A stretch of DNA of 56,790 nucleotides from a virus, in the IMG/VR virus record IMGVR_UViG_3300046820_001502, positions 1 through 56,790 of that record; one strand, 5' to 3'. Both the position numbers and the translations under genes were made by a program. The notes under the pieces are model-generated. The model did no database searches and was not told the DNA's origin. It saw nothing but the letters and a program-made list of their open reading frames with translations. Numbering within the stretch: the first letter of the stretch is position 1; each line of letters begins with the position of its first letter. Shown in pieces: positions 28,219 through 54,045 of the stretch.

Positions 28219-28232
28219 TAAACCTTTTATCA

Positions 28233-28239
28233 ATAAATA
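28233..28239 (-). promoter_or_regulatory. TATTTAT late-promoter-like element
   Basis: TATTTAT on the coding strand, 14 bases before the ATG at 28218, the same spacing as its paralogue; this supports that start over the upstream TTG. Confidence 0.5.
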
Positions 28240-30633: not shown

Positions 30634-31521
30634 TTAAATTCCTAATTCCGTCTCAAAAAAATGAACGAAGTGTGTTTTATTTTTAATTGATTCTCTATCG
30701 AAAACCGGAGTTGTGAGCCAAAAGTCTTCATGATACCAAGTATCAAAACTGAATGTTTTAAACATATCAGGATTTTCGAACTCTAAGTTTGTAATCATAC
30801 CTTCGTGATTTAATATATGATTTTCATTTAAACATAAATTACTTATTATATCAAATTCTTGTATGAACCATTTTATTTTTGAAATGTGTCCTCCCAAAAT
30901 ACCACCAACAGACATATGTTTATAATCATTATTATTTTTATAAACTTTTCTAATCTCATTTGGGTTATGTGAAAACATGGTATTTGCCAAGTTGATTAAT
31001 TTATCGCCAACCCAATTATTTATCTTTGGGAATAATTCAGGACAAAATATTTTTGTAAATGAATAGTTTTCCCAATCTCGAGATAAACCAGTAATCTTAT
31101 CGGAGTAAGGATTATATTTTAAGGTAAACAATCCTCTGTGAGATAAACCACAATCAATCCAATAAATGTAGTCATAGGATTCGTCGTATTCTTTTGAAAT
31201 AAGGTATATTTTATTCCAATCAACTTCATGGTAGAAATTAAATTGTTCGTTAGATTTTTTAATCTCTAACATTCTTTCCGTTTTTGGGTAGTCTTTAAGA
31301 TTTGAAATTTTAATCGTTACGTTATTTAAATTAAATTCCTCACAATATTTTTGTAACAAATCAAATTGAGTTTCATTACAATAACATATAATTTCATTAT
31401 TCATGTTATTTAATGTCCTTAAAGAATGTAAGTATCTTTCTTGTCTTGCAAATGACTCGTGACCAAAAAAAGGAAACCCAATAATATCGGTATAAAAGGC
31501 GGTTACTAGCTTTGTCTTCAT
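30634..31521 (-). CDS. HtrL/YibB-family putative glycosyltransferase
   Basis: 295 residues, starting KLVTAFYTDIIGFPFFGHES, then DYIYWIDCGLSHRG (about 137-150; the W-x-D-x-G site of the family) and HMSVGGILGG (about 201-210), corresponding to the GGFFGG block in the composite neighbour. This matches the WlaTC/HtrL family found in lipopolysaccharide and capsule clusters, presumed to be a nucleotide-sugar transferase with a GT-A fold. The donor cannot be told from sequence. Its ATG overlaps the carbamoyltransferase stop by 4 bases, indicating translational coupling, and 9 bases separate it from the three-domain enzyme, whose middle segment is a paralogue. Confidence 0.7.
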   Translation of the reverse strand: MKTKLVTAFYTDIIGFPFFGHESFARQERYLHSLRTLNNMNNEIICYCNETQFDLLQKYCEEFNLNNVTIKISNLKDYPKTERMLEIKKSNEQFNFYHEVDWNKIYLISKEYDESYDYIYWIDCGLSHRGLFTLKYNPYSDKITGLSRDWENYSFTKIFCPELFPKINNWVGDKLINLANTMFSHNPNEIRKVYKNNNDYKHMSVGGILGGHISKIKWFIQEFDIISNLCLNENHILNHEGMITNLEFENPDMFKTFSFDTWYHEDFWLTTPVFDRESIKNKTHFVHFFETELGI

Positions 31522-33105: not shown

Positions 33106-34350
33106 TTATAAATTTCCTGTTATTCTATCACACCAACCTTTAGATGTTGAGTAAGGCCAAACAACCCAATATTTAGGTTTTTTAGTTGTATTGAATTCTC
33201 TCCATACTTTACAGTATCCATCAGGATCTCTAAAGAAACCGTTTATTTCATTAATATCTGCATCTCTTCTATATAAAGTTTCATCATTTTCATCGTGAAA
33301 AGCAACTACCCAATATTCATAATCTTTTTCAGGAACACTCACATAATTTACGTCTATACAGTGTTTGAAGATTGTTGAAAATGATTTCTTCCATTCCTCT
33401 TCTGTCTCGAAGTTATAGGTGTTTGGTGGATATTTTTTGTCAATTGTCTCTTGTTGGATTCCTCTTGACTCAAACAAAACACCAGCATATTTTTCATAGT
33501 CACTTACGGTTCTTTCAGTTCCAAACCATAAAGAATAATCTCCATCAAATTTTTCACCGTCAACTCCTAAAAGTTGTCTGTTTTTAATATGACAAGCTGT
33601 GTTTCTTAAATGCCAATCTTTGTCATCGTCCCACTGTTTAGTTCTACCTTTTCTTGTGTATTCGTGCCAAATTAAAACTTTGTGTGGATGGAATAAATCA
33701 TAACCATATGTATAAGCTCTTACTGAAATTGAAATTTCTTCTCCGTGAAAATAAAATTCAGGATCATGTTGAACTTCAGTTGAAAATTCACCTAAAGTAA
33801 AACAATAATGTGCTGAGTAAAATCTTGCAGGAACAGGTTGTTTCATTTCTTGCCAACCTGGAATTGATTCAGGCAAGAAGAATACAACACCTTCAGGTGT
33901 AAATCTATCAAATGCCATTCTCCATGGTTCTCTAACACGACCTTCAGGATCATTATCAGGATCAAATGATGAAACATATCCTGTTAAAAGAGGTTTTTTA
34001 TGTCCTTTCTTTTGAAGTTGTTTAATCATTTTAATCATTTCATCATCCCAATTCTTTTCGAATCTCATGTGAGAATCGATTTGAAGAGTATACTCCTCAC
34101 CACCATACAGTTGTTGGACTTGATGTCTTGCCCAACAAACCCCTTTTGATTCTGTGTAAGGAATATTTAGGATTCTAAATCTTTTATCTTTTTCATACTT
34201 AGATAAATCATCAAAACCATCTTCAGGATGGAATTGTCTTGCAACACCAATAATTACATTTTTTGGTCTTTTTGCGTTTTCCAACATATTTTCTATTGTT
34301 GGTATTAGTTGAGGGTCGCGATACGCAGCGATTTGTACAAATATTTTCAT
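33106..34350 (-). CDS. GT60-type (GlcNAc) glycosyltransferase acting on polypeptides
   Basis: 414 residues. It starts KIFVQIAAYRDPQLIPTIEN, then GVCWARHQVQQLYGGEEYTL and QIDSHMRF (D92-S-H94, the D-x-H/D-x-D-like metal site), followed by FYSAHYCFTLGEF and YFHGEEISISVRAYTYGYD. These are the marks of the GlcNAc (PF11397) family, whose characterised eukaryotic members are Dictyostelium Skp1 hydroxyproline GlcNAc transferase and Trypanosoma mucin Thr-GlcNAc transferases (CAZy GT60). The family assignment is confident from motifs; the phage acceptor is inferred. Because the phage also encodes many Thr-rich linkers, its own adhesins are plausible substrates. The gene follows the 100-residue small protein gene by 37 bases. 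Confidence 0.8.
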   Translation of the reverse strand: MKIFVQIAAYRDPQLIPTIENMLENAKRPKNVIIGVARQFHPEDGFDDLSKYEKDKRFRILNIPYTESKGVCWARHQVQQLYGGEEYTLQIDSHMRFEKNWDDEMIKMIKQLQKKGHKKPLLTGYVSSFDPDNDPEGRVREPWRMAFDRFTPEGVVFFLPESIPGWQEMKQPVPARFYSAHYCFTLGEFSTEVQHDPEFYFHGEEISISVRAYTYGYDLFHPHKVLIWHEYTRKGRTKQWDDDKDWHLRNTACHIKNRQLLGVDGEKFDGDYSLWFGTERTVSDYEKYAGVLFESRGIQQETIDKKYPPNTYNFETEEEWKKSFSTIFKHCIDVNYVSVPEKDYEYWVVAFHDENDETLYRRDADINEINGFFRDPDGYCKVWREFNTTKKPKYWVVWPYSTSKGWCDRITGNL

Positions 34351-34736: not shown

Positions 34737-35720
34737 TTAAATGTATCTTGTATACGTATTGTTGTAATATTGTACGATATCAGAATTTGATAATGCAATA
34801 TCGTATATTAATACTTCACCAACATTACCTTGCAAATATTCATTACTTACTGTTTTTGCGATTTGTATCGCACTTGTTGTGACATTATGTCCTGAAGGTG
34901 TATCTGAACCAACTAAAACACCGTTAACCAATATACTTCTTGTTGTACCATCATATTTTACAACAGCATTAAACCACCCATTTGTTGGTGACACGGAACT
35001 TGTCACAACTAAATCATTACCCCACCAATAATTTATTACTTGATTAGTTCCTCCGGCTCTAAATGCATTTGATTGGTTACCAGTTCCAAATGAACCAACA
35101 CTCATAAATCCATTACCACCCCAATTAGTACCAAGTTGTACCCATATTATAAAAGTATAATCTGAGTTTCCTGTCGGTAAGTTAGTTCCTGATGGATTAC
35201 TAAACCATCCATTAGACCCTGTTGAGAAATAAACCGCTCCTGTATTATTCCAAGTTATACTACCTGAGTTTACCATGGTAACATCATTTCCATTACCACT
35301 TAAATCATACCAAGTAGTACCCGCACCTGAGTAACTATTAGGGTCGGCAGCATCTAAATGCAAACTTAAATTAGAAACGTATGAGGTCCAGTATCCTTGA
35401 TTGTTTAAATAAGTTTTACATTGACTTCCCGTTGTAAATGTTTGATTAAAAACTCCATTTACTAAGTTAACAAAAGATTGTTCTGTTTTAACTTTTGATC
35501 TCAAAAATCTAATATATGCCGGTACATTATCAGGATTAGGTTGATTACCAAAAAAGTTAGGTCTACATATAACATAACCCAAATCTTCATCAGGACCATT
35601 CCACCATCTTGGTAAACCTGTAAATCCTGTGGTTGGGAAACCTACCGCCAAGTCTCCAATCTGTAATGTTCCTGAAATTGTTGATCCTGTGTTAAAAGCA
35701 AAAGGTCTTGTTGTTGACAT
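34737..35720 (-). CDS. Tail fibre/adhesin with LamG-like lectin domain
   Basis: 327 residues. The first 115 (ISGTLQIGDLAVGF, RWWNGPDEDLGYVICRPNFF, PAYIRFLRSK) form a virion-attachment module. Residues about 118-327 are a concanavalin-like/LamG domain: LSLHLDAADPNSYSG, WYDLSGNGNDVTM, FTFIIWVQLG-like strand (YTFIIWVQLGTNW), WFNAVVKYDGTTRSILVNG and a final GNVGEVLIYDIALSNSDIVQ. This is the usual order of strands in phage and bacterial LamG-type sugar-binding domains. It probably binds a host surface glycan. A TATTTAT element lies 15 bases upstream. It stands between two glycosyltransferase genes. Confidence 0.75.
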   Translation of the reverse strand: MSTTRPFAFNTGSTISGTLQIGDLAVGFPTTGFTGLPRWWNGPDEDLGYVICRPNFFGNQPNPDNVPAYIRFLRSKVKTEQSFVNLVNGVFNQTFTTGSQCKTYLNNQGYWTSYVSNLSLHLDAADPNSYSGAGTTWYDLSGNGNDVTMVNSGSITWNNTGAVYFSTGSNGWFSNPSGTNLPTGNSDYTFIIWVQLGTNWGGNGFMSVGSFGTGNQSNAFRAGGTNQVINYWWGNDLVVTSSVSPTNGWFNAVVKYDGTTRSILVNGVLVGSDTPSGHNVTTSAIQIAKTVSNEYLQGNVGEVLIYDIALSNSDIVQYYNNTYTRYI

Positions 35721-35749: not shown

Positions 35750-36676
35750 CTACACTATTTCCAATACTTTGTTATAAACCGCAAATATTGTTGGGTGACA
35801 CTCAAATGTTTCTTTTCTTTCTAAACAATTAACTAAAGATGGGATGCCTTGTATTGATCCCCACTCTCTAACACCATATTTTATGTTGGAAGCGCAATTA
35901 AGACCACAACCACCAACAACATAATGGTATTTGTATTGTTGCGATCCTCGTCTAAATGGTGATCTAAACTCAGGATTTATAGAGCTACCTAATTGAATTA
36001 TTTCAGCATCTGTTGTTCCTGCCAAATGTAGTAAACCAGAATCCATGGTTATGAAACACATACTATTGTGAATTAAATGCCAAGCCTGATCCATATCCGT
36101 GTTGTTCATTAAATTTAAACCTAAGTTGATTGGAAAATTAAAAACAGGTTTATCAACATTAGATCCGCCAAGTTCTGAAGAATCTTTACCAATTGACACA
36201 ACCGCAATTCCTTTTTGATTTAAAAGTTTCGTTAACATTTGCCAATTTTTTGCATCCCAAGTTCTTGAGTTCCAATTTTGAACAGGATGTATTAAAACGT
36301 ATTTTTCAGGTAGACCCTCTATTTTTTCAATTGATTTTGGTATGTAATCCATCCCCATCTCATCTTTGGTTAACATAAACCCAAGATTGATTGCATGAAA
36401 TTGTCTAATATCCATGGCGTTATGTTTATAACAAACCCCATTTGGGTGATATCCAACATTAAATGAAACAAAGACTTCATGTGTTTCTTTTAATTCATCT
36501 GTAACTTCAGTAAAGATTTGATCAACACAAGGATTATTAGAAAATAAATATGGGTGGTGTGTTGCGACAGATATTTTTTTACCGTAAGAATAGTAAAGTT
36601 TTCTTAAAGTTGGTGTAACTGCTAAGGTATCACCTAACGCTCTACAACCTAATACATCAATACAAACATTTTTCAT
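35750..36676 (-). CDS. Heptosyltransferase-like glycosyltransferase (GT9 fold)
   Basis: 308 residues with a GT-B arrangement typical of GT9: LGCRALGDTLAVTPTLRKLY near the start (G-D-x-[LI] motif), HPVQNWNSRTWDAKNWQML (about 145-163; the H/S-x-x-x-x-x-[KR]-x-W donor region) and ITMDSGLLHLAGTT (about 214-227; D-S-G-x-x-H). The C-terminus carries GGCGLNCASN and later VNCLERKETFEC; a four-Cys arrangement like the iron site of TibC-type protein heptosyltransferases is possible, though spacing differs. It would move a heptose or similar sugar from a nucleotide donor. It is the first enzyme of the minus-strand block and is divergent from the 974-residue composite, which also holds a GT9-like domain. 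Confidence 0.8.
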   Translation of the reverse strand: MKNVCIDVLGCRALGDTLAVTPTLRKLYYSYGKKISVATHHPYLFSNNPCVDQIFTEVTDELKETHEVFVSFNVGYHPNGVCYKHNAMDIRQFHAINLGFMLTKDEMGMDYIPKSIEKIEGLPEKYVLIHPVQNWNSRTWDAKNWQMLTKLLNQKGIAVVSIGKDSSELGGSNVDKPVFNFPINLGLNLMNNTDMDQAWHLIHNSMCFITMDSGLLHLAGTTDAEIIQLGSSINPEFRSPFRRGSQQYKYHYVVGGCGLNCASNIKYGVREWGSIQGIPSLVNCLERKETFECHPTIFAVYNKVLEIV

Positions 36677-39691: not shown

Positions 39692-39725
39692 AAAAACCCC
39701 CATCTTTTCAGGTAGGGGTTTTTTT
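39692..39725. terminator. Bidirectional terminator between convergent genes
   Basis: AAAAACCCC (39692-39700) pairs with GGGGTTTTT (39715-39723) around a 14-base loop, in the 56-base gap between the composite transferase and the giant fibre. It has T runs on both strands and overlaps the fibre's stop region. Confidence 0.75.
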
Positions 39726-41000
39726 ATGCTGGACAAGCGTGTGCCGCAATACAAGTCGTACAGTCACTATATTGTGCGGTTATTGTTCCTACTGATACGG
39801 TTGCGGGCCCAGTACTAGATGAAACAAAGTCAAAACATACACCAGTAAGAGGATCATAAAATCCACTGAATCCCATACCACCTTGAGCTAATACAACTTG
39901 GTTAGTGTTTAAACAACAGTTATAAACTTCGTAATAATTACAAGGGTTGGATTCTAAACACTTTTCACAAGTATCATAAGGAGTATCAGTGTAAAAATTA
40001 CTTGTTGGTGTATCTGTCGTTATTGACACACAAACATAACAGTTATCACTTATTACTTCAAGATAACTTAATCCAATTGTAAATACTCCATATGCGACTT
40101 GTGTTACGCCAGTTTCACAACAAGCCGAGAATAAATAATAGTCAGGACAGCCACCAACATCTAAACGACATTGTGTACAATCATCAAATTGTTTGGAGTT
40201 ATAAATTGGTACTGGCCAACTTACAGTACCCGTTAAGTCCCAAGAAGTAACTTCCCAACAAACACCATTTGTGTCTGTAAATATAGTCCCTGTTTGTGGG
40301 ACAAACGCTTGAGTTGCATATACCTCAACTTGTAAAGGGTTACAACAATTTCTTATTGTAACATAAACAACTTCAGGACAAGGATTTGCTGTTTTACAAG
40401 CTTCACATCCACCAAAATATTGGCTAGCTAAAGATATACTATAATTTGTTGGTAATTGATTTACTTGTGTATTAATTACCCAACAAAAACCATTTGTGTC
40501 TATCCAAATTTCTCCAATAGATACAGTTCCGGCTGGTATTGATATGATTTCTTGAGGTAAAACCTTACAACATGAATTAATAAACCAAAACTCAGGACAC
40601 TCATTTGTGGTAATACAGTCATCACAATTTGTGTATCCCGTTGTTCCAATTGTAATTGTTGGTGCTGTTACAGGTGCCCCGGTTCCAGATGTAACATTCC
40701 AACACAATCCATTATCATCAACAAAAGTATCACCAACTACTAAATCTAACGAACCTGTAACATATTCAAGTCCAGTAACACAACAACTATCAATTACCGC
40801 ATTATCAGGACAAGGGTTACTTGATATACAAGAAGAACAACTTGCGTAATTGGTCACTAATGTTCTAATACTATTTGGTGCTGCAAGTGTAGTACTTTCT
40901 ATTTCCCAACAGTTATCTTGAGCATCACTCCAAAATGTTCCTATCGTTAAACTACTACCAACAATAATTTCAGTTACAGTTGGTTCACAACAGTTTCTTA
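39724..41000 (-). repeat. Six Cys-rich modules at the fibre tip
   Basis: Six units of about 65-75 residues, each [NSA]-C-C, then about 25 residues, G-x-C-[WYF], then about 25 residues, C-x2-C-x5-C-[PN]. Units are diverged (for example NCCEPTV..., SCCVTGL..., ACCETGV...). Disulphides or metal sites are likely; I do not recognise the module. Confidence 0.8.
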
Positions 41001-44000
41001 ACACATAAAATTCACCATCAGGAATTGTACAATCTTTTTCATAATTTAAGGTATATGTAAATCGTGGTTCTTGTGTAGGAGTATCAGCATCTTGAACAAT
41101 ATTAAAACCAACAACATAGAATATGTCACACGCATTATAATATTGTGTAAATGTATGTGAAACATCAAAACATAAATAGTTTGATGTCATATTGAAATAT
41201 GCTGGAGATATTACAGTTGTTAAAGGAATTAAATCTCCTAAATCATTACATTGATATAAATAAAGTGCCACAACAAAAGATGGTTGGTACGAAGATAGGT
41301 TAATCTTCCACCATACATTACCACAAAGTCTTATACTATCTCCAGCTCTAACATTAACTGGTGATGGAACACCTAAAAAGGCTGTATCACCTCTAAGGGG
41401 GTTCGCACTAAATCTTATAGGAACTCCTATATCCCAAGGACAACCATTCCAACCACATTCGGAACTACCCATCCAAAGAAAATTTGTGTTTGTGTCTGGC
41501 TGTGGGGTTAGTTTAAATTTACCCGAATTTGACGCTATTAATGTATTATCTATGTTACAACTTCCACCTCCACCAGTACAAGTTAATGTTACATTTACAG
41601 ATCCACTTGTTCCTGAGGTTGCGGTTATACAAGTTCCGATAAAATTAATACTTGTTGCACTTGATTGAACTAAATTTCCTTCGTCGAATATAGAAATTGC
41701 ACCTCCTCCGCCGCCACTTGTACCTGAAGATCCGTTTGTACCATTTGTTCCCGAAGTTCCAGGTGATCCTGTTGCCCCATTTGTTCCGTTTGTTCCTGAC
41801 GTACCATTTGTTCCGTTAGTTCCTGAAGTTCCCGGTGATCCTGTCGCCCCATTTGTTCCGTTTGTTCCTGACGTACCATTTGTTCCGTTAGTACCTGAAG
41901 TTCCCGGTGATCCTGTCGCCCCATTAGTTCCGTTTGTTCCCGAAGTCCCATTTGTTCCATTCGTACCTGAAGTTCCCGGTGATCCTGTCGCCCCATTAGT
42001 TCCGTTTGTTCCCGAAGTCCCATTTGTTCCATTCGTACCTGAAGTTCCCGGTGATCCTGTTGCCCCATTTGTACCATTAGTTCCTGAAGTACCATTTGTA
42101 CCATTAGTTCCTGAAGTTCCCGGTGATCCTGTAGCCCCATTTGTACCATTAGTTCCTGAAGTACCATTTGTACCATTAGTTCCTGAAGTACCAGGTGATC
42201 CTGTCGCCCCATTTGTTCCGTTTGTTCCTGACGTTCCATTTGTACCATTAGTTCCGTTTGTTCCATTAGTACCCGAAGTCCCATTAGTTCCATTCGTTCC
42301 TGAAGTCCCATTAGTCCCGTTAGTTCCATTTGTTCCTGACGTACCCCTTGTTCCTGACGTTCCATTAGTTCCGCTAGTACCATTTGTTCCATTTGTTCCT
42401 GATGTACCGTTCGTTCCTGAAGTTCCATTTGTTCCGTTAGTTCCATTGGTTCCCGAAGTTCCGTTTGTACCGTTGGTACCAGAAGTCCCATTTGTTCCAT
42501 TAGTTCCATTTGTTCCGCTAGTACCATTCGTACCGCTTGTCCCATTCGTACCATTCGTTCCTGATGTTCCATTTGTTCCGTTGGTCCCGTTAGTACCTGA
42601 CGTTCCATTTGTACCACTAGTACCATTAGTTCCGTTAGTTCCGCTAGTACCATTAGTACCGCTCGAACCATTTGTTCCATTTGTTCCTGAAGTACCATTT
42701 GTTCCATTAGTACCCGATGTTCCGTTGGTACCGCTAGTTCCGTTAGTTCCATTAGTCCCTGACGTACCGTTGGTTCCTGAAGTTCCATTAGTTCCATTTG
42801 TACCACTTGTTCCATTTGTACCATTAGTTCCTGAAGTTCCGTTTGTTCCATTTGTACCATTTGTCCCGTTGGTCCCTGAAGTCCCGTTAGTACCTGAAGT
42901 ACCATTCGTTCCTGACGTACCGTTTGTTCCATTAGTACCTGATGATCCGTTTGTACCGTTAGTACCTGAAGTTCCATTTGTCCCGCTAGTTCCGTTAGTA
43001 CCATTAGTTCCTGATGTACCATTAGTTCCGTTTGTCCCTGAAGTACCATTAGTGCCTGATGTTCCGTTTGTTCCATTTGTCCCGCTAGTTCCGTTTGTAC
43101 CATTGGTTCCGTTTGTTCCGCTAGTCCCGTTAGTACCGTTGGTACCACTTGAACCATTTGTTCCATTAGTTCCCGACGTACCGTTTGTACCTGAGGTTCC
43201 GTTAGTACCATTCGTACCGCTAGTGCCATTTGTTCCATTCGTACCGCTAGTTCCATTTGTACCATTAGTTCCCGAAGTTCCATTGGTACCTGATGTTCCG
43301 TTAGTCCCATTAGTACCACTAGTTCCATTCGTACCGTTTGTTCCGCTAGTACCGTTGGTTCCACTTGAACCATTTGTTCCATTCGTCCCTGAAGTGCCGT
43401 TTGTCCCATTTGTTCCATTTGTTCCCGAAGATCCGTTTGTTCCGTTAGTACCTGATGTTCCATTGGTTCCGTTAGTTCCATTCGTCCCTGATGTACCATT
43501 TGTTCCTGATGATCCGTTTGTACCGTTAGTACCTGATGTTCCATTAGTTCCCGAAGTCCCATTTGTACCGTTGGTACCACTTGAGCCATTAGTTCCGTTC
43601 GTTCCGCTCGTACCGTTTGTTCCTGACGTTCCATTTGTACCATTCGTTCCATTTGTACCATTTGTTCCTGAAGTTCCATTGGTTCCCGAAGTTCCGTTGG
43701 TTCCATTCGTACCTGAAGTTCCATTAGTACCATTTGTTCCGTTAGTTCCTGAAGTTCCGTTAGTTCCGCTCGTACCATTTGTTCCATTAGTTCCATTAGT
43801 ACCGTTGGTTCCTGAAGTCCCATTTGTTCCTGAAGTTCCGTTGGTTCCACTAGTACCATTTGTACCGCTCGTACCATTAGTACCCGATGTTCCATTAGTT
43901 CCGTTTGTTCCATTAGTTCCGTTTGTTCCCGATGTACCATTAGTACCACTTGTACCATTCGTTCCATTAGTTCCTGAAGTACCATTAGTTCCCGATGTCC

Positions 44001-47000
44001 CATTTGTCCCATTCGTACCTGATGTTCCATTTGTGCCGTTAGTTCCGTTTGTACCGCTAGTACCATTTGTACCATTTGTTCCTGAAGTTCCATTGGTTCC
44101 GTTAGTTCCTGAAGTTCCATTTGTACCTGACGTTCCATTGGTACCATTTGTTCCTGAAGTACCATTCGTACCTGATGTTCCATTAGTCCCATTAGTACCT
44201 GAAGTTCCGTTGGTACCATTTGTTCCTGAAGTACCATTTGTTCCGTTTGTACCTGAAGTACCGTTGGTTCCGTTAGTACCACTTGTACCATTCGTACCTG
44301 ATGTTCCGTTAGTTCCATTTGTACCGCTAGTACCATTAGTACCATTTGTTCCTGATGTGCCGTTAGTCCCAGAAGTTCCATTGGTTCCACTTGTTCCGTT
44401 AGTACCATTCGTTCCTGACGATCCATTGGTTCCATTGGTACCTGATGTTCCATTAGTCCCACTTGTTCCATTTGTACCATTTGTTCCTGAAGTACCATTA
44501 GTTCCGCTAGTTCCGTTTGTACCATTTGTTCCGCTAGTTCCATTTGTTCCGTTCGTACCGCTAGTACCATTTGTACCTGAAGTTCCGTTCGTACCATTTG
44601 TTCCTGATGTTCCATTCGTACCTGAAGTTCCATTTGTCCCATTCGTACCACTAGTACCATTAGTTCCATTTGTACCGTTAGTTCCGTTTGTTCCTGATGT
44701 CCCATTTGTTCCGTTGGTTCCTGATGTTCCATTAGTACCTGAAGTTCCATTTGTGCCGTTAGTTCCGTTTGTACCGCTAGTTCCATTGGTTCCGTTAGTT
44801 CCTGAAGTTCCATTTGTACCTGACGTTCCATTGGTACCATTTGTTCCTGAAGTACCATTCGTACCTGATGTTCCATTAGTCCCATTAGTACCTGAAGTTC
44901 CGTTGGTACCATTTGTTCCTGAAGTACCATTTGTTCCGTTTGTACCTGAAGTCCCGTTTGTCCCACTTGTTCCGTTGGTTCCATTCGTTCCATTAGTCCC
45001 ACTTGTTCCGTTGGTTCCATTCGTTCCGCTAGTTCCATTAGTCCCATTTGTTCCGTTAGTCCCATTCGTTCCGCTAGTTCCATTCGTTCCTGACGTTCCA
45101 TTCGTACCGTTGGTACCACTTGAACCATTTGTTCCGTTAGTACCCGAAGTTCCGTTTGTACCATTCGTCCCTGAAGTACCATTTGTTCCGCTTGTACCGT
45201 TAGTCCCATTAGTTCCACTAGTACCATTTGTTCCGTTTGTTCCACTAGTTCCGTTAGTACCTGAAGTACCGTTGGTTCCATTTGTACCGCTAGTACCGTT
45301 TGTTCCATTTGTTCCTGAGGTTCCATTCGTACCGCTAGTACCATTAGTACCATTTGTTCCCGAAGTACCATTTGTACCATTCGTACCTGAGGTTCCGTTT
45401 GTTCCGCTAGTTCCATTTGTTCCATTAGTACCGCTAGTCCCGTTAGTTCCATTTGTTCCTGAAGTTCCATTAGTACCCGAAGTACCATTCGTACCATTAG
45501 TTCCTGACGTACCATTAGTACCGTTGGTTCCATTCGTACCATTCGTACCATTTGTACCACTAGTCCCATTTGTTCCTGATGTTCCATTCGTACCACTAGT
45601 TCCGTTAGTTCCATTTGTACCTGAAGTACCATTAGTGCCGTTTGTACCAGATGTTCCATTCGTTCCGCTAGTACCATTTGTTCCGTTTGTCCCTGACGTT
45701 CCATTAGTTCCGTTCGTTCCATTCGTTCCGTTGGTTCCCGAAGTTCCATTGGTTCCATTTGTACCACTTGTACCGTTAGTACCATTAGTTCCGTTTGTTC
45801 CATTTGTACCACTTGTACCGTTAGTACCATTAGTTCCTGATGTTCCGTTAGTCCCATTAGTACCCGATGTACCATTTGTTCCGCTAGTTCCGTTGGTTCC
45901 ATTAGTACCATTCGTACCATTAGTTCCGCTAGTACCATTTGTACCGTTAGTTCCTGATGTTCCGTTTGTCCCTGAAGTACCGTTAGTACCGTTGGTTCCC
46001 GAAGTTCCATTCGTTCCGTTTGTACCTGAAGTTCCATTTGTACCATTTGTCCCCGATGTACCATTAGTACCTGAAGATCCGTTCGTACCATTCGTTCCGC
46101 TAGTTCCATTAGTACCATTCGTTCCACTAGTACCATTTGTTCCAGACGTACCATTTGTTCCATTAGTACCGCTAGTTCCGTTCGTACCATTTGTTCCATT
46201 AGTACCGTTAGTACCTGATGTTCCGTTTGTTCCATTCGTACCTGATGTTCCATTGGTTCCATTTGTTCCTGACGTACCGTTCGTACCGCTAGTACCGTTT
46301 GTTCCATTTGTTCCTGACGTTCCATTAGTTCCATTAGTTCCGTTAGTACCGTTTGTTCCCGATGTCCCATTCGTACCGCTAGTACCATTAGTTCCGTTAG
46401 TACCGTTTGTACCTGAGGTTCCGTTGGTTCCATTAGTTCCGTTGGTACCATTTGTTCCGCTAGTTCCATTCGTTCCTGACGTACCGTTTGTTCCTGATGT
46501 GCCGTTAGTTCCGTTAGTTCCGTTAGTACCGTTTGTTCCCGATGTTCCGTTAGTACCGTTTGTTCCCGATGTTCCGTTCGTTCCTGAAGTTCCATTTGTA
46601 CCGTTGGTACCGTTAGTTCCGCTTGAACCATTTGTTCCATTTGTTCCTGACGTACCGTTTGTTCCATTAGTACCGCTAGTACCATTTGTTCCCGATGTTC
46701 CATTAGTACCGTTGGTTCCTGATGATCCGTTTGTACCATTTGTCCCACTAGTGCCATTTGTGCCTGAAGTTCCATTCGTTCCATTGGTACCGTTAGTTCC
46801 TGATGTTCCGTTTGTTCCATTCGTACCTGAGGTTCCGTTGGTACCATTTGTTCCGTTTGTACCATTTGTACCCGATGTCCCATTGGTTCCGTTCGTTCCG
46901 CTAGTTCCATTGGTTCCGTTTGTTCCCGATGTTCCGTTGGTACCATTTGTTCCATTAGTTCCGTTCGTACCGCTAGTTCCGTTGGTACCATTTGTTCCAT

Positions 47001-49302
47001 TAGTACCATTTGTACCTGATGTACCATTCGTTCCACTAGTTCCATTCGTTCCGTTTGTACCATTCGTTCCATTTGTCCCGCTAGTTCCATTAGTACCTGA
47101 TGTTCCGTTTGTTCCATTAGTACCCGACGTCCCGTTTGTTCCAGAAGTACCATTAGTACCGTTGGTACCGCTTGAACCATTTGTTCCATTCGTTCCCGAA
47201 GTTCCATTAGTACCTGATGTACCATTGGTTCCATTAGTACCTGAAGTTCCGTTTGTCCCATTCGTACCTGATGTACCATTTGTTCCCGAAGTTCCATTCG
47301 TACCATTCGTACCTGAAGTTCCATTTGTACCTGAGGTTCCGTTTGTTCCGTTTGTGCCCGATGACCCATTAGTTCCATTCGTACCGTTGGTACCATTTGT
47401 ACCTGAAGTCCCATTAGTTCCTGACGATCCATTTGTCCCATTAGTACCCGATGTCCCATTAGTACCCGATGTTCCGTTAGTACCGTTGGTTCCATTTGTT
47501 CCGTTAGTTCCATTTGTTCCGCTAGTACCGTTGGTTCCGTTTGTTCCATTCGTTCCGCTAGTTCCATTTGTACCTGAGGTTCCATTCGTTCCGTTTGTTC
47601 CTGATGTTCCATTAGTACCGTTTGTTCCTGAAGTTCCATTGGTACCACTTGAACCATTTGTTCCATTAGTACCGTTAGTTCCATTCGTACCTGATGTTCC
47701 GTTAGTCCCTGATGTACCATTTGTTCCATTTGTCCCTGAAGTACCATTAGTCCCGTTTGTTCCATTTGTACCTGAGGTACCATCAGCCCCACTTGTTCTA
47801 TAATATGTATTTCCGCTTGTATCAACAACAACAAATCTTGTTGCTCCTGAATTAATTGTAATGCCTGTAATACTTAACGCATCCGTAGTTGTTCTACCCG
47901 AACCATCAAAAGATATCTTATGAACTCCCGCACCATTTTTAATTTCTAACACCGGATCAGCATCAGACGCACTACCTCTTTGTATTGTAACCGCACCTAA
48001 TGTTGAATTAGTTATAATCTCAGGTTCAGATGAGTTATTATATGCTTGTTGTAAATTTGTTGTTGGACTACCTCCCGCAGCACCTACCACATCACCAAAT
48101 TTTGATACATTAAAGAATAACGCTTTTGCAGTATCTGTTAAGACAGTTGTGTCTTTTCTAAGAGAAAGTATTCCTATTAAAATGGCATCATTATTGAAAT
48201 TAGAAAATTCAACAAATTGTTCAGTTTGGATTCCAGCAACCGCCGCAGCCAAACTTGAATATGTTTGTTGTCCATATTGAACTCTAAACACACCATTTTG
48301 AACCAAATAAATTCTTTGGTTAGTTGAAGTTCCCCCTCCACCAGGTATAGTGGTGATAACACCATTCAAATCGTATTTTGTTGGATCAATAAATGTAGTG
48401 TTTGATGCCGTACCCCCTGTTTGTGTTCTATATTGAAATGTACATGGAGAGGTACCTGAAACGTATATTGTATCAGGTTGTAAAGGATTAGCAGCAAAGT
48501 TAATACCCAAACCATACAAATATTGTGCACTTGTGTTAAACCTTAAATTCGCACCATTTGCTGATGGATAGATACCCCCATTTATTAAGTTAATAGGAGT
48601 GAACATGTCACGAAGTTGTGACAATGGTGATTGGATAAAGTCAGGTTGACTAAACGCATTTATAATAGTTGTTTTGTCAGCATGTCCTAATTTACCTAAG
48701 AATATATTTTGTCTTCTTTGTGTCTCAGTTAAAGGAAGATTTGATTGTGAAAGTGTACCACCACTTGTTAAATAAATCCAACTTTCTGTATCAGTTGTTC
48801 TATATGTAGCACTATAAGTACCACCACTGTATGCGACATAATAAAGTTGCGGAAATAAAGGATTTGTAAAATCATCTACAACCCAACCTTTTACAGGTGC
48901 TACAGTAAATGTGGTTGGGGATGCAATACTTAAACCAGAAAATGAAAATACCCCTGTTGAGGAGTTAACACTTGAAATATTATATGCAATGGCAACCCAG
49001 TTTGAACCGTTACTTGCAAGTTGTAATGAATTTGTTTCCCCTAATACAACAAATGACTTATCATCAATATTCTGACCAGAATATGGTAATACAGTAACCG
49101 CACCACCACCATTATTTTTAATTACAATTAATCTACCCTGTTTTCCAACAGCTGTCTGTAGTTGAACGTTAAAGGTACCACCTGTAACGTCAATCATGTA
49201 ATCACTATCAGTAACAGTATAAGTACTGTTAATTGTAAGTTGGGGGAATGTTATACCACTAAGAGATTTAAGCCCATTACGGGCAACGAATTCATTTGCC
49301 AT
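39724..49302 (-). CDS. Giant collagen-like tail fibre with Cys-rich C-terminal repeats
   Basis: 3192 residues. Residues 1-500 form a fibre base: MANEFVARNGLKSL, then TYTVTDSDYMIDVTGGTF and IVIKNNGGGAVTVLP, a segment common at tail-fibre starts. Residues about 501-2530 are almost only G-T-N and G-T-S triplets, a collagen-type Gly-x-y repeat with Thr at x, Asn or Ser at y and almost no Pro. Near its end are seven 24-residue repeats containing GATGSPGTS. After a GTSGGGGG hinge come a beta domain (about 2540-2770) and six Cys-rich modules to the end. If triple-helical (0.286 nm per residue) the shaft would be about 0.58 micrometre. Every G-T-N-G-T gives an N-G-T sequon. Expression from a TATTTAT 58 bases upstream is possible. 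Fibre identity is strong; helix formation and glycosylation are inferred. Confidence 0.85.
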   Translation of the reverse strand: MANEFVARNGLKSLSGITFPQLTINSTYTVTDSDYMIDVTGGTFNVQLQTAVGKQGRLIVIKNNGGGAVTVLPYSGQNIDDKSFVVLGETNSLQLASNGSNWVAIAYNISSVNSSTGVFSFSGLSIASPTTFTVAPVKGWVVDDFTNPLFPQLYYVAYSGGTYSATYRTTDTESWIYLTSGGTLSQSNLPLTETQRRQNIFLGKLGHADKTTIINAFSQPDFIQSPLSQLRDMFTPINLINGGIYPSANGANLRFNTSAQYLYGLGINFAANPLQPDTIYVSGTSPCTFQYRTQTGGTASNTTFIDPTKYDLNGVITTIPGGGGTSTNQRIYLVQNGVFRVQYGQQTYSSLAAAVAGIQTEQFVEFSNFNNDAILIGILSLRKDTTVLTDTAKALFFNVSKFGDVVGAAGGSPTTNLQQAYNNSSEPEIITNSTLGAVTIQRGSASDADPVLEIKNGAGVHKISFDGSGRTTTDALSITGITINSGATRFVVVDTSGNTYYRTSGADGTSGTNGTNGTNGTSGTNGTNGTSGTNGTSGTNGTNGTNGTNGSSGTNGTSGTNGTNGTSGTNGTNGTSGTNGTSGTNGTNGTNGTSGTNGTNGTNGTNGTNGTSGTNGTSGTNGTNGSSGTNGTSGTNGTNGTNGTNGSSGTNGTNGTSGTNGTSGTNGTNGTSGTNGTSGTNGTNGTSGTNGTNGTSGTNGTSGTNGTNGSSGTNGTNGTSGTNGTSGTNGTNGTSGTNGTSGTNGTNGTNGTNGTSGTNGTSGTNGTNGTNGTNGTSGTNGTNGTNGTNGTSGTNGTNGTSGTNGTNGTSGTNGTNGTNGTNGTSGTNGTNGTSGTNGTNGTNGTSGTNGTSGTNGTNGSSGTNGTNGTSGTNGTSGTNGTNGTSGTNGTNGSSGTNGTNGTNGTSGTNGTSGTNGTNGTSGTNGTNGTNGTNGTSGTNGTSGTNGTSGTNGTNGTNGTNGTSGTNGTNGTNGTSGTNGTSGTNGTNGTNGTNGTSGTNGTNGTSGTNGTSGTNGTNGTSGTNGTNGTSGTNGTNGTNGTNGTSGTNGTNGTSGTNGTSGTNGTNGTSGTNGTNGSSGTNGTSGTNGTNGTSGTNGTNGTSGTNGTNGTSGTNGTSGTNGTNGTSGTNGTNGTNGTNGTSGTNGTSGTNGTNGTSGTNGTNGTSGTNGTNGTNGTNGTSGTNGTNGTSGTNGTNGTNGTNGTSGTNGTNGTSGTNGTSGTNGTNGTSGTNGTNGTSGTNGTSGTNGTSGTNGTNGTNGTNGTNGTSGTNGTNGTSGTNGTSGTNGTNGTSGTNGTNGTSGTNGTSGTNGTNGTSGTNGTNGTSGTNGTSGTNGTNGTSGTNGTNGTSGTNGTSGTNGTNGTSGTNGTNGTSGTNGTSGTNGTNGTSGTNGTNGSSGTNGTNGTSGTNGTSGTNGTNGTNGTNGTSGTNGTNGTSGTNGTNGTNGTSGTNGTSGTNGTNGTSGTNGTNGTSGTNGTNGTSGTNGTSGTNGTNGTSGTNGTSGTNGTNGTSGTNGTNGTNGTSGTNGTSGTNGTNGTSGTNGTNGTNGTNGTSGTNGTNGTSGTNGTSGTNGTNGTSGTNGTSGTNGTNGTSGTNGTNGTSGTNGTSGTNGTNGTSGTNGTSGTNGTNGSSGTNGTNGTSGTNGTSGTNGTSGTNGTNGTSGTNGTNGTSGTNGTSGTNGTNGTSGTNGTNGTSGTNGTNGTSGTNGTNGTSGTNGTSGTNGTNGTSGTNGTSGTNGTNGTSGTNGTNGTSGTNGTNGTNGTSGTNGTNGTSGTNGTSGTNGTNGTSGTNGTSGTNGTNGTNGTNGTSGTNGTSGTNGTSGTNGTSGTNGTSGTNGTNGTNGTNGTSGTNGTSGTNGTNGTNGTSGTNGTNGTSGTNGTSGTNGTNGTNGTNGTSGTNGTSGTNGTNGSSGTNGTNGTSGTNGTSGTNGTNGSSGTNGTSGTNGTNGTNGTSGTNGTNGSSGTNGTNGTNGTSGTNGTNGSSGTNGTSGTNGTNGTSGTNGTNGTSGTNGTSGTNGTNGTSGTNGTNGTSGTNGTNGTSGTNGTSGTNGTNGSSGTNGTNGTSGTNGTNGTNGTSGTNGTNGTSGTNGTSGTNGTNGTSGTNGTNGTSGTNGTSGTNGTNGSSGTNGTNGTSGTNGTSGTNGTSGTNGTNGTNGTNGTSGTNGTNGTSGTNGTNGTSGTNGTSGTNGTNGTSGTNGTSGTNGTNGTSGTNGTNGSSGTNGTSGTNGTNGTSGTNGTSGTNGTNGTNGTSGTNGTNGTSGTNGTSGTNGTNGTNGTSGTNGTNGTSGTNGTNGTNGTSGTNGTSGTNGTNGTSGTNGTSGTRGTSGTNGTNGTNGTSGTNGTNGTSGTNGTNGTNGTNGTSGTNGTNGATGSPGTSGTNGTNGTSGTNGTNGATGSPGTSGTNGTNGTSGTNGTNGATGSPGTSGTNGTNGTSGTNGTNGATGSPGTSGTNGTNGTSGTNGTNGATGSPGTSGTNGTNGTSGTNGTNGATGSPGTSGTNGTNGTSGTNGTNGATGSPGTSGTNGTNGSSGTSGGGGGAISIFDEGNLVQSSATSINFIGTCITATSGTSGSVNVTLTCTGGGGSCNIDNTLIASNSGKFKLTPQPDTNTNFLWMGSSECGWNGCPWDIGVPIRFSANPLRGDTAFLGVPSPVNVRAGDSIRLCGNVWWKINLSSYQPSFVVALYLYQCNDLGDLIPLTTVISPAYFNMTSNYLCFDVSHTFTQYYNACDIFYVVGFNIVQDADTPTQEPRFTYTLNYEKDCTIPDGEFYVLRNCCEPTVTEIIVGSSLTIGTFWSDAQDNCWEIESTTLAAPNSIRTLVTNYASCSSCISSNPCPDNAVIDSCCVTGLEYVTGSLDLVVGDTFVDDNGLCWNVTSGTGAPVTAPTITIGTTGYTNCDDCITTNECPEFWFINSCCKVLPQEIISIPAGTVSIGEIWIDTNGFCWVINTQVNQLPTNYSISLASQYFGGCEACKTANPCPEVVYVTIRNCCNPLQVEVYATQAFVPQTGTIFTDTNGVCWEVTSWDLTGTVSWPVPIYNSKQFDDCTQCRLDVGGCPDYYLFSACCETGVTQVAYGVFTIGLSYLEVISDNCYVCVSITTDTPTSNFYTDTPYDTCEKCLESNPCNYYEVYNCCLNTNQVVLAQGGMGFSGFYDPLTGVCFDFVSSSTGPATVSVGTITAQYSDCTTCIAAHACPA
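41705..47800 (-). repeat. 9-base-unit collagen-like repeat array (G-T-N/G-T-S)
   Basis: About 6.1 kb of GGN ACN (AAY or TCN) codons, with constant amino acids and highly variable third bases. Runs of N between S residues are usually one or two triplets, giving an irregular alternation with no single fixed period. Confidence 0.9.
41742..42245 (-). repeat. Seven 72-base tandem repeats with GATGSP unit
   Basis: Seven copies of a 24-residue unit (GTSGTNGTNGTSGTNGTN followed by GATGSP), nearly identical in DNA, unlike the codon-scrambled array upstream in the gene; they contain the only Pro codons of the collagen region. Confidence 0.8.
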
Positions 49303-49420: not shown

Positions 49421-52400
49421 TTAGAATACAATTCTTGTAGCGACTAAGATGTCCCAAGTACCTCCAGTAATTGTTGCAATTAAATCAACAATACCTGCGG
49501 TTACTTGGACATTCCATTTAAGATTCGCGGTAGAACCATTCAAATCAGGTGATGACACATCAGTAAATGCGGCCCCCGCATTATCCCAAGTTGCATATAC
49601 TTGACCAACTCTTTTTTGACCTGCATTTCCTGTAATACAATATTCGAAGAACGCAGCACATCCAAAATCAGATCTAAATCTATCGATAGTGGTTGTTGTA
49701 GTTATACCTGTTGCGGTTTTAGTATTAACTTTATCGTAACTTCTATTTAGAGTTAATATACCGTCAGTTCCATTATATGTGAAATTAGTTTCTGCAACTA
49801 TTCCTCCCGAGCCGTCAGATGTTAGTATTTCATTATCCGAACCTGGTACTACAGGTGATGATCCGCTTGTACCATCAGTACCTGAAGTTCCATTTGTCCC
49901 TGACGTTCCATTAGTTCCGCTAGTACCATTTGTTCCTGACGTTCCGTTTGTTCCTGAAGTCCCATCTGTTCCATTAGTTCCTGAAGTCCCATCTGTTCCA
50001 TTAGTTCCTGAAGTACCGTTTGTTCCGTTAGTACCCGATGTCCCATCAGTACCTGAAGTTCCGTTAGTTCCATTTGTTCCCGAAGTCCCGTTAGTACCAT
50101 TCGTACCATTCGTACCATTCGTACCACTAGTACCATTAGTTCCGCTAGTACCATCAGTTCCATTAGTTCCTGATGTACCATTCGTACCATTAGTTCCATT
50201 TGTTCCTGAAGTACCGTTGGTTCCATTTGTTCCTGATGTACCATTAGTACCATTTGTTCCTGAAGTCCCATTAGTACCATCCGTACCATTCGTACCATTA
50301 GTTCCGCTTGTTCCGTTAGTTCCGTTAGTCCCATTTGTCCCCGAAGTACCATCAGTCCCGTTAGTACCTGATGTTCCGTTTGTACCATTTGTGCCTGAAG
50401 TTCCGTTGGTTCCATTAGTACCTGATGTTCCATCTGTTCCGTTAGTTCCATTAGTCCCCGAAGTTCCATCTGTTCCGTTAGTACCTGAAGTACCGTTGGT
50501 TCCGTTAGTACCTGAAGTACCATCTGTCCCATTAGTTCCGTTAGTCCCATTTGTACCAGAAGTCCCATCTGTTCCTGATGTTCCGTTAGTTCCATTTGTA
50601 CCGCTAGATCCATCTGTTCCGTTGGTTCCACTTGTACCATTAGTACCTGAAGTACCATTTACACCTGATATCCCACTAGTACCATCTGTCCCTGAAGTGC
50701 CGTTAGTTCCGCTAGTTCCATCTGTACCATTTGTACCATCGGTTCCTGAAGAGCCATTTGTCCCATCGGTTCCTGAAGAGCCATTTGTCCCATCGGTTCC
50801 TGAAGTTCCATTTGTCCCATCGGTTCCTGAAGTCCCATCTGTTCCGTCAACACCTGAAATACCACTTGTCCCATCTGTACCTGAAGTACCGTCTGTTCCA
50901 TTAGTCCCATCTGTTCCGCTTGAACCATTTGTTCCGTCAGTTCCACTTGTTCCATCTGTTCCATTTGTTCCTGAAGTCCCATCTGTTCCGTTTGTACCTG
51001 AGGTTCCATCTGTTCCATTTGTTCCTGAAGTCCCATCTGTTCCGTTTGTCCCCGAAGTACCATCTGTTCCGCTAGTACCATCAGTTCCATTCGTACCATT
51101 TGTTCCGCTAGTACCATCAGTTCCTGAACTTCCATCCGTACCATTTGTTCCGCTAGTACCATCAGTTCCATTCGTACCATTAGTTCCACTTGTTCCATTC
51201 GTACCACTTGATCCGTCTGTTCCATTAGTTCCCGAAGTTCCATCTGTTCCATTAGTTCCCGAAGTTCCGTCCGTTCCGTTTGTACCGCTTGAACCGTTTG
51301 TACCGCTTGAACCATTTGTTCCTGAAGTCCCATCTGTTCCATTTGTACCTGAAGTTCCATCCGTACCACTTGATCCATTTGTACCATCAGTTCCATCAGT
51401 CCCATTAGTACCTGAAGTTCCATCAGTCCCGTTTGTTCCACTAGTACCATCAGTACCCGAAGTACCATTTGTTCCGTCCGTACCGCTAGTACCATCAGTT
51501 CCATTTGTTCCACTAGTACCGTCTGTTCCATTTGTCCCTGAAGATCCATTTGTCCCATCTGTACCGCTAGTTCCATTTGTCCCATCTGTACCGCTAGTTC
51601 CGTCAGTACCATTAGTACCTGAAGTTCCATCTGTACCATCAGTTCCATTTGTACCACTAGTACCACTAGTACCATCTGTTCCATTTGTACCTGAAGTACC
51701 ATCTGTTCCATTTGTACCTGAAGTTCCATCTGTTCCACTTGAACCATCTGTACCATTCGTCCCACTAGTCCCATCAGTCCCTGAAGTCCCATCTGTCCCG
51801 TTAGTTCCGCTTGAACCATCTGTTCCGTCTGTCCCATTTGTACCCGAAGTACCATCTGTTCCGCTAGTTCCATCTGTACCATTAGTTCCGTCTGTACCTG
51901 AAGTACCATCTGTTCCATTTGTACCGTCAGTACCTGAGGTTCCATCTGTACCATTAGTTCCTGATGTACCATTAGTTCCTGATGTTCCGTTAGTACCATC
52001 TGTACCTGAAGTCCCATCTGTTCCATTTGTTCCGCTAGTCCCATCTGTTCCATTTGTTCCGCTAGTCCCATCTGTTCCATTTGTTCCGCTAGTTCCATCT
52101 GTACCATTTGTTCCGCTAGTTCCATCTGTACCATTTGTACCGTCAGTACCATTTGTTCCTGAAGTTCCGTCTGTTCCATCTGTTCCTGAAGTTCCATCTG
52201 TTCCATCTGTTCCTGAAGTTCCGTCTGTACCATTTGTACCCGAAGTCCCATCAGTACCATTTGTTCCATTTGTTCCATCTGTACCATTAGTTCCTGAAGT
52301 TCCGTCCGTACCACTAGTACCATCAGATCCATCTGTTCCGTTTGTACCACTTGAACCGTCAGTTCCATTAGTTCCCGACGTACCATTTGTTCCGTTAGTT

Positions 52401-53536
52401 CCTGATGTACCGTTGGTACCATTTGTTCCTGAAGTTCCGTTTACTCCAGATATACCACTTGTCCCATCAGTCCCTGAAGTTCCGTCTGTTCCGCTAGTCC
52501 CATCAGTTCCGTTTGTGCCTGATGATCCGTCTGTTCCGTTTGTGCCACTACTACCTGAAGTACCGTCTGTTCCGCTAGTTCCGTCTGTTCCGTTAGTTCC
52601 CGACGAACCGTCTGTTCCGTTAGTTCCCGACGAACCATCTGTACCATTTGTTCCGCTAGTTCCGTCTGTACCACTAGTCCCATCGGTTCCTGAAGTTCCA
52701 TCAGTCCCATTTGTACCCGAAGATCCATCAGTACCATTAGTTCCACTACTTCCATCAGTACCATTTGTACCTGACGTTCCATTTACACCTGATAATCCGC
52801 TTGTTCCATCTGTTCCGCTTGTTCCATCTGTTCCACTTGTTCCATCTGTTCCACTTGTTCCATCTGTTCCACTTGTTCCATCAGTTCCTGAAGTTCCGTC
52901 TGTTCCACTACTTCCGTCCGTACCATTTGTACCTGAAGACCCATCTGTCCCGTTAGTACCACTTGATCCATCAGTACCATTTGTTCCGCTAGTTCCATCT
53001 GACCCACTAGTTCCATCAGTTCCTGAAGTTCCATCTGTTCCTGAAGTTCCATCTGTTCCACTTGAACCTGAAGACCCACTTGAACCTGAAGACCCACTTG
53101 AACCTGAAGACCCACTCGATCCTGAAGATCCATTAGTTCCGTCTGTTCCACTTGATCCTGAAGATCCGCTTGAACCTGAAGACCCACTCGATCCTGAAGA
53201 TCCACTCGATCCTGATGAACCTGAACTACCTGATGAACCTGAACTACCTGATGAACCGCTTGATCCTGAACTACCTGATGAACCTGAACTACCTGCAGTT
53301 CCTGATCCACCACTTGTACCACTTGAACCATCTGTTCCTGAAGTACCGTCTGTACCTGAACTACCACTACTTCCTGTGGCACCACTTAAAATTGCCTGTA
53401 AATCACTTAAAGGAGCATAATAAGAAGAACCTTGTGGGCTCTGAGAAGTGTCTCCCGTAACAACTACGTGAAAAATATCGTTTAAGGTTACAGCTGAAAC
53501 CCTACTCCTGTCCGTTAATCTACTATATACTGGCAT
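49421..53536 (-). CDS. Second collagen-like tail fibre (G-S-S / G-T-D / G-T-N)
   Basis: 1371 residues. The first 50 (MPVYSRLTDRSRVSAVTLND ... DLQAILSG) are an attachment segment. Residues about 51-1228 are Gly triplets: G-S-S runs near the N-terminus, then G-T-D/G-T-S, shifting to G-T-N/G-T-S toward the C-terminus, with GISGVNGTS or GLSGVNGTS interruptions at several places. After SPVVPGSDNEILTSDGSGGI comes a 120-residue beta head (RFRSDFGCAAFFEYCITGNA, VGQVYATWDNAG, TGGTWDILVATRIVF), a pattern frequent at phage fibre tips. If triple-helical, the shaft would be about 0.34 micrometre. A TATTTAT lies 8 bases before the ATG. Confidence 0.85.
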   Translation of the reverse strand: MPVYSRLTDRSRVSAVTLNDIFHVVVTGDTSQSPQGSSYYAPLSDLQAILSGATGSSGSSGTDGTSGTDGSSGTSGGSGTAGSSGSSGSSGSSGSSGSSGSSGSSGSSGSSGSSGSSGSSGSSGSSGSSGTDGTNGSSGSSGSSGSSGSSGSSGSSGSSGTDGTSGTDGTSGTDGTSGSDGTSGTNGTDGSSGTNGTDGSSGTNGTDGSSGTDGTSGTDGTSGTDGTSGTDGTSGTDGTSGTDGTSGLSGVNGTSGTNGTDGSSGTNGTDGSSGTNGTDGTSGTDGTSGTDGTSGTNGTDGSSGTNGTDGSSGTNGTDGTSGTDGTSGSSGTNGTDGSSGTNGTDGTSGTDGTSGTDGTSGISGVNGTSGTNGTNGTSGTNGTNGTSGTNGTDGSSGTNGTDGSDGTSGTDGTSGTNGTDGTNGTNGTDGTSGTNGTDGTSGTDGTDGTSGTDGTDGTSGTNGTDGTNGTDGTSGTNGTDGTSGTNGTDGTSGTNGTDGTSGTNGTDGTSGTDGTNGTSGTNGTSGTNGTDGTSGTDGTNGTDGTSGTDGTNGTDGTSGTDGTSGTNGTDGTDGSSGTNGTDGTSGTDGTSGTNGTDGSSGTDGTSGTNGTDGTSGTNGTDGTSGTSGTNGTDGTDGTSGTNGTDGTSGTDGTNGTSGTDGTNGSSGTNGTDGTSGTNGTDGTSGTDGTNGTSGTDGTSGTNGTDGTSGTNGTDGTDGTNGSSGTDGTSGTNGTDGTSGTNGSSGTNGSSGTNGTDGTSGTNGTDGTSGTNGTDGSSGTNGTSGTNGTNGTDGTSGTNGTDGSSGTDGTSGTNGTNGTDGTSGTDGTSGTNGTDGTSGTNGTDGTSGTNGTDGTSGTNGTDGTSGTDGTNGSSGTDGTNGTDGTSGTDGTSGISGVDGTDGTSGTDGTNGTSGTDGTNGSSGTDGTNGSSGTDGTNGTDGTSGTNGTSGTDGTSGISGVNGTSGTNGTSGTNGTDGSSGTNGTNGTSGTDGTSGTNGTNGTNGTDGTSGTNGTNGTSGTNGTDGTSGTNGTNGTDGTSGTNGTNGTSGTNGTNGTSGTNGTDGTSGTNGTNGTNGTSGTNGTNGTDGTNGTSGTNGTNGTSGTNGTNGTSGTNGTNGTNGTSGTNGTDGTSGTNGTSGTNGTNGTNGTNGTSGTNGTNGTSGTDGTSGTNGTNGTSGTNGTDGTSGTNGTDGTSGTNGTSGTNGTSGTNGTSGTNGTSGTDGTSGSSPVVPGSDNEILTSDGSGGIVAETNFTYNGTDGILTLNRSYDKVNTKTATGITTTTTIDRFRSDFGCAAFFEYCITGNAGQKRVGQVYATWDNAGAAFTDVSSPDLNGSTANLKWNVQVTAGIVDLIATITGGTWDILVATRIVF
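49857..53387 (-). repeat. 9-base-unit collagen-like repeat array (G-S-S/G-T-D/G-T-N)
   Basis: About 3.5 kb of GGN (ACN or TCN) (AAY, GAY or TCN) codons with a composition gradient along the protein: Ser-rich at the N-terminal end, Asp-rich in the middle, Asn-rich at the C-terminal end. Confidence 0.9.
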
Positions 53537-54043: not shown

Positions 54044-54045
54044 AA

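Follow-up and report, generated by a model that had tools for sequence, protein, structure and literature searches.

Long, nearly proline-free collagen-like fibers in a tailed phage and a glycosyltransferase-methyltransferase gene that accompanies long collagen tracts

Two adjoining genes for collagen-like fibers, F1 (a tail-fiber protein) and F2, were found in a 56.8-kb IMG/VR viral record (56,790 nucleotides, the whole of which was analyzed and is here called the window) that carries the sheath, tube and baseplate genes and the family B DNA polymerase (PolB) of a tailed phage. F1 converges, across a gap of about 56 bp, on TRI, a gene combining GT4, GT9 and FkbM methyltransferase parts. It seems probable, judging from gene content and sequence, that these fibers hold a collagen-like spacer between a virion anchor and a receptor-binding head, and that the spacer is glycosylated and methylated by TRI as a dedicated phage enzyme. 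The observations behind this reading are the anatomy of the tract, its tail-fiber homology, the swapping of heads, spacers and anchors among related fibers, and the association of TRI with collagen genes. Phage collagen fibers as such were known, and the pairing of TRI with collagen is our strongest new result; a search of the open-access literature brought up no account in which GTN/GTS phage collagens go together with a TRI-like enzyme. The features are collected in Table 1.

Table 1. Fiber genes, further structural genes and the sugar/methyl gene island of the window.
Feature	Position	Strand	Basis
F1, collagen-like tail-fiber protein, 3192 aa	39724..49302	-	Open reading frame, repeat count, Pfam Collagen
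F1 N-terminal part, aa 1-504, tail-fiber domain	47791..49302	-	PHROG tail fiber protein, E 8.6e-22
F1 Gly-X-Y tract, aa 505-2535, 677 triplets	41698..47790	-	Pfam Collagen, triplet count
F1 C-terminal head, aa 2536-3192, with about six Cys-rich modules	39724..41697	-	Modules read by eye
F2, second collagen-like fiber, 1371 aa	49421..53536	-	Pfam Collagen, triplet count
F2 Gly-X-Y tract, 392 triplets (GTN/GTD/GTS/GSS)	49856..53383	-	Triplet count
F2 N-terminal 51-aa segment, probable virion anchor	53384..53536	-	Common to 38 ORFs of related loci
Laminin_G_3 (concanavalin-like) structural protein	34737..35720	-	Pfam PF13385, E 8e-14; PHROG virion structural protein
TRI: GT4 + GT9 + FkbM methyltransferase, 974 aa	36743..39667	+	Pfam; collagen association
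GT9 glycosyltransferase	35750..36676	-	Pfam PF01075, E 5e-14
GT60-type GlcNAc transferase	33106..34350	-	Pfam PF11397, E 8e-69, 233 bits, above cut-off
Carbamoyltransferase	31518..33095	-	Pfam PF16861, E 5e-63
FkbM methyltransferase + HtrL_YibB protein	28246..30624	-	Pfam

The F1 tract consists of consecutive Gly-X-Y triplets without a single break, 2031 residues by count, and matches Pfam Collagen (PF01391) with E = 9e-273, in agreement with the initial annotation, which had estimated about 2030 residues of GTN and GTS repeats. The fiber locus named there is a real frame, corrected here to the minus strand and adjoined by F2 as a second collagen-like fiber. GTN (435) and GTS (207) dominate the triplets, followed by GSS (17), GAT (7) and GSP (7); thus Thr stands at X in 643 of 677 triplets (95%) and at Y in only 7, Y being Asn or Ser. 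Charged residues number two, one Arg and one Asp, and the seven Pro all lie within GSP, close to the C-terminal end. The unbroken F2 tract (Pfam Collagen, E 4e-167) has no Pro and uses Asp at Y besides Asn and Ser. The Pro-rich X and Y positions typical of the collagen family are lacking in both fibers, and they are not required for Pfam membership.

Phage fiber domains flank the F1 tract, as indicated by the N-terminal PHROG match and by head swaps among fibers. The N-terminal part is 26-36% identical to fiber or tailspike proteins of Streptomyces, Stenotrophomonas DLP6 and Flavobacterium 11b phages. At the head end (39727-41010, minus strand), modules of about 70 aa, some six in tandem, follow a CC...CW...CxxC...C pattern and are without Pfam match. 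AlphaFold models were poor for both the head (mean pLDDT 58) and the N-terminal part (pLDDT 41), and when these models of the F1 parts were compared by Foldseek, no PDB match was significant and the matches obtained were viral only, with very low TM-scores. The N-terminal segment type of F2 is found also on fibers without long collagen tracts. Antisense open frames on the plus strand face both tracts (42446-47803, 1785 aa; 49779-53420, 1213 aa); they are by-products of the repeats that a gene caller could choose. Elsewhere in the window, the 1111-aa tail sheath protein (9259-12594, minus strand) has a large insertion with TTTTTT and Pro-Thr linkers, the sheath match covering its last 290 residues only, and in a 712-aa phage protein (16274-18412, plus strand) a complete Fe/Mn superoxide dismutase domain (Pfam E 3e-40) is preceded by about 160 extra residues and followed by about 360.

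One DNA pattern for GTN/GTS repeats matched at least 118 segments of viral contigs, and the Thr/Ser-rich, almost Pro-free make-up is general among the tracts listed. The longest among the matches listed have 926 (L009), 877 (L044), 824 (L040), 734 (L081) and 695 (L084) triplets, and F1, which had been put forward as extremely long, is therefore long yet unexceptional for its kind. In L138 a head of the F1 type follows an F2-type N-terminus with 0 triplets between them, and in L083 such a head stands behind 644 triplets, and therefore the tract appears to be an optional spacer; a weaker relative of the head (33%) ends L009. If triple-helical, F1 would have a contour of 581 nm and F2 of 336 nm, both by arithmetic only (0.286 nm per residue). 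A collagen of 581 nm contour is expected to be flexible.

The coding of the F1 tract bears on whether the long protein is real. Gly and Thr employ all four synonymous third bases in an almost uniform protein, and for this reason the DNA of the repeat copies agrees at only about 65-70% of positions; the tract is thus no simple DNA repeat. Exact DNA repeats reach 174 bp at most, in copies 693 bp apart, compared with 32-44 bp after synonymous-codon shuffling, which indicates some recent duplication. At the level of sequence, a tract so diverse in DNA and so uniform in protein reads as the trace of selection on the protein plus this duplication. Since a common short read spans less than 174 bp, the assembly may have the length of the tract wrong by about 77 triplets, and one might suspect an artefact of assembly or repeat expansion with no long protein behind it. 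We regard this as hardly credible, since of the 41-base words of the tract 93% occur only once, the frame is open throughout, and independent contigs carry 566-926 triplets, the 566 being in a relative whose N-terminal part is 74% identical.

A second alternative is that the repeats form a disordered, hydrophilic, mucin-like tether or another Gly-rich fold, with selection acting on length and hydration and not on helix stability. Such a tether is favored by the composition, since host-guest peptides lead one to expect that Thr at X combined with Asn or Ser at Y is unfavorable in collagen, by the variation from 0 to 926 triplets among relatives, and by the lack of a predictable structure for the tract. 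However, Gly occupies every third position with zero exceptions in 677 + 392 triplets despite the diversified codons, which a tether would not need, and known phage collagens are triple-helical (PMC3368898); we thus consider the tether quite unlikely.

The association between TRI and collagen was counted in deduplicated loci of at least 10 kb found by TRI search alone, and independent evidence was limited to loci not found through collagen, including the GT60-found subset, with collagen-found loci left out. Gly-X-Y tracts were present in 36 of 51 TRI-found loci, compared with 9 of 53 GT60-found (Fisher p = 4e-8) and 3 of 46 PolB-found loci (p = 3e-11), although TRI loci share ancestry and the counts are not fully independent. 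Where at least 4 kb of 3' flank was available, collagen lay 3' of TRI in 24 of 36 deduplicated loci, antiparallel in 24/24, and of six TRI records in which no collagen lay within 10 kb, four have it at another place in the record. In the GT60 and PolB sets, full-length TRI was found in 6/12 collagen-bearing and 0/9 collagen-free records (p = 0.019), rising to 8/12 with split versions included (p = 0.005); G004 and G007, which bear collagen without TRI, both end inside the collagen gene.

The same pattern is seen among GT60-found loci on a shared backbone, in which tracts of about 90-370 triplets are accompanied by TRI and loci with short tracts or none lack it. On the backbone ending in GT60, FkbM-HtrL and PolB, L134, L137, L146 and L192 have long tracts and TRI, whereas L138, L142, L163, L168, L170 and L195 have short tracts or none and no TRI match in the locus; L136, with short tracts, has only a partial TRI match (34% identical). 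The record holding the collagen-free L138 fiber, G037, is also without TRI. L212 is an exception, with 440 S-rich triplets and no TRI, and L299 and L300 are TRI loci without GTN-type collagen nearby. No TRI was found in a bacterial genome scan. Searching with FkbM only also gave collagen-rich loci (9 of 14 deduplicated), with another collagen type; in L309-L336, found in this way, GTQ/GAT/GTT collagen is often encoded a few kb upstream of FkbM, on the same strand. Judged by gene content, it is TRI and not the whole island that accompanies long collagen tracts, and because it tracks them across phages, a link of sugar to collagen is credible.

The remainder of the island behaves differently. 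GT60 is a core gene of the lineage, present in every record of the polymerase-found set, and collagen (E <= 1e-9) was found in only 12 of 21 GT60 records. The GT60 of the window is 43-46% identical to that of the jumbo phages XacN1, RAS14 and CM1, and GT60 is present in XacN1, RAS14, G020 and G023, which are phages without collagen. XacN1 has the same annotated adjacency and order of GT60 and carbamoyltransferase and a GT9 gene as well (GT60 is ORF334, GT9 is ORF328). Neither XacN1 nor RAS14 gave a Pfam Collagen match, and the GT60/carbamoyltransferase part of the island is therefore not collagen-specific. At least two glycoproteins were detected in XacN1 virions, in which no tail fibers were seen (PMC5852040). 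Runs of four Pro-Thr pairs occurred in 26/27 records with GT60 and in 2/8 without it (p = 1e-4, the records being related and some near-duplicates). In the window, four structural-looking proteins on the minus strand have long Pro-Thr linkers (22807-23649, 26656-28233, 53615-54085 and 54046-56235). Since GT60 is found in collagen-free phages and follows Pro-Thr linkers, other substrates explain it better than collagen does, and these four linker proteins would be the better candidates. GT60 has no PDB relative by sequence. The earlier suggestion that the glycosyltransferases beside the fiber point to a glycan is accordingly retained for TRI and not for GT60 and the carbamoyltransferase. The idea of an island serving collagen as a whole was rejected for GT60 on its distribution and finds no support for the carbamoyltransferase, which was near collagen in 1/13 loci.

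These data also bear on a third alternative, according to which F1 is unmodified, the repeats fold sufficiently at host temperature with the aid of great length and terminal trimer domains, and the transferases act on other virion proteins, for example those with Pro-Thr linkers, or on the host surface. The Escherichia coli prophage fiber EPclA provides a precedent as an unglycosylated phage collagen, stable without sugar with a Tm of 42 C (PMC3368898). The distribution of GT60, including its presence in collagen-free XacN1 with virion glycoproteins, fits this alternative too, and sugar enzymes could adjoin fibers for other reasons. The stabilizers proposed for EPclA are, however, almost missing in F1, and TRI, unlike GT60, tracks the long tracts; we see an unmodified fiber as rather unlikely.

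Two further candidates were set aside. N-glycosylation was considered for the 428 N-G-T/S sequons, which Thr at X creates automatically, and no N-glycosyltransferase family was seen. As to prolyl hydroxylation, the 2OG oxygenase PF13640 was found in only 2 of 18 records, and a gene of this kind was not found in the window. In L299 (9962-18881), a TRI homologue is followed by a 2OG-Fe(II) oxygenase and, farther along, by a DUF6445 protein and a Pro-containing collagen with GPQGAQ repeats, a gene set that is possibly a hydroxylated counterpart.

The placement of Ser within the F1 tract is uneven. Ser at Y in adjacent triplets occurs as one pair against about 74 expected from composition, the spacing being mostly 2-3 triplets. 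AGY serines, which are one transition from Asn, have 1 Ser neighbor against 55 expected from random placement, and their avoidance of adjacency argues for selection; descent from a repeated unit could also have produced it. The avoidance is seen in 30 or more related N-rich tracts, and S-rich fibers such as L009 do not follow it. A helical period behind the pattern was rejected, since spectral peaks differ among fibers (mostly 2.3-2.8 triplets) and give no common pitch. As a tentative possibility, widespread Pro-free phage collagens may be stabilized or cloaked by the GT4-GT9-FkbM enzyme through a methylated sugar on X-Thr or Y-Ser, with the spacing of Ser at Y serving as a modification code.

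Returning to the TRI-modified spacer as our preferred reading, the anchor and the N-terminal part would hold F1 on the virion, and a spacer of collagen type would place the presumably receptor-binding C-terminal head far from the tail, this spacer being most likely a flexible, trimeric triple helix whose contour reaches about 0.58 micrometre at most. TRI most likely adds a short methylated sugar to the repeats, on X-Thr or Y-Ser, and the sugar would give the solubility, hydration or stability that Pro, hydroxyproline or charge pairs lend to other collagens, or would serve for shielding. We infer the helix, its trimeric state, the modification, the residue carrying it and the stabilizing or shielding role from the observations above. 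How a collagen without proline or hydroxyproline holds together is a standing problem, and natural repeats by the hundreds, on similar anchors and heads and with a candidate enzyme next to them, open the question to experiment with a single gene pair. If TRI modifies the repeats, the fiber would be a rare virus-made glycoprotein among tailed phages, of which XacN1 is one of few examples (PMC5852040), and the pair would be a compact phage sugar-based system to stabilize long collagen-like materials.

Some likeness to F1 is seen in other systems. Two of them are isolated phages in which the pairing recurs, with Gly-X-Y fiber genes within a few kb of TRI-related GT or FkbM genes: Microcystis phage Mel-JY01 has a collagen-like open frame in the vicinity of a TRI-related gene that fuses GT and FkbM, and in Synechococcus phage DSL-LC02 an annotated collagen-like protein lies beside mannosyltransferase and FkbM genes. 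They differ in that only 26-34% of TRI is matched, the DSL-LC02 repeats are of the GTQ/GTT/GAT type and interrupted, and those of Mel-JY01 include GPP stretches. The public annotation of Mel-JY01 (L413, 739-2298) gives an antisense hypothetical protein, and the collagen-like frame of about 1000 codons is on the opposite strand.

Riftia cuticle collagen consists of Thr-rich Gly-X-Y repeats for which a sugar contribution to hydration or stability has been proposed, and Bacillus BclA is likewise a Thr-rich Gly-X-Y protein with a sugar proposed to aid hydration or stability. Invertebrate and BclA collagens bear the sugar on Thr at Y, typically in Gly-Pro-Thr, whereas in F1 Thr occupies X and Asn or Ser occupies Y, Pro is nearly missing, and the sugar is a prediction. 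The precedent of Thr-glycosylated invertebrate collagens, to which the initial annotation had appealed, therefore does not map directly on F1.

Close known counterparts are also the E. coli prophage proteins EPclA and EPclB, collagen-like side-tail fibers that, similarly to F1, have a Gly-X-Y tract between N- and C-terminal fiber domains; EPclA is a proven triple-helical trimer, and its stability has been ascribed to Pro at X and charged residues (PMC3368898). In contrast to EPclA, which is high in Pro at X and has many charges, F1 is poor in both, has 677 triplets and no recognized coiled-coil domain, and is adjoined by a sugar/methyl gene. As F1 is nearly without the Pro at X and the charged residues of EPclA, a substitute stabilizer in F1 is plausible.
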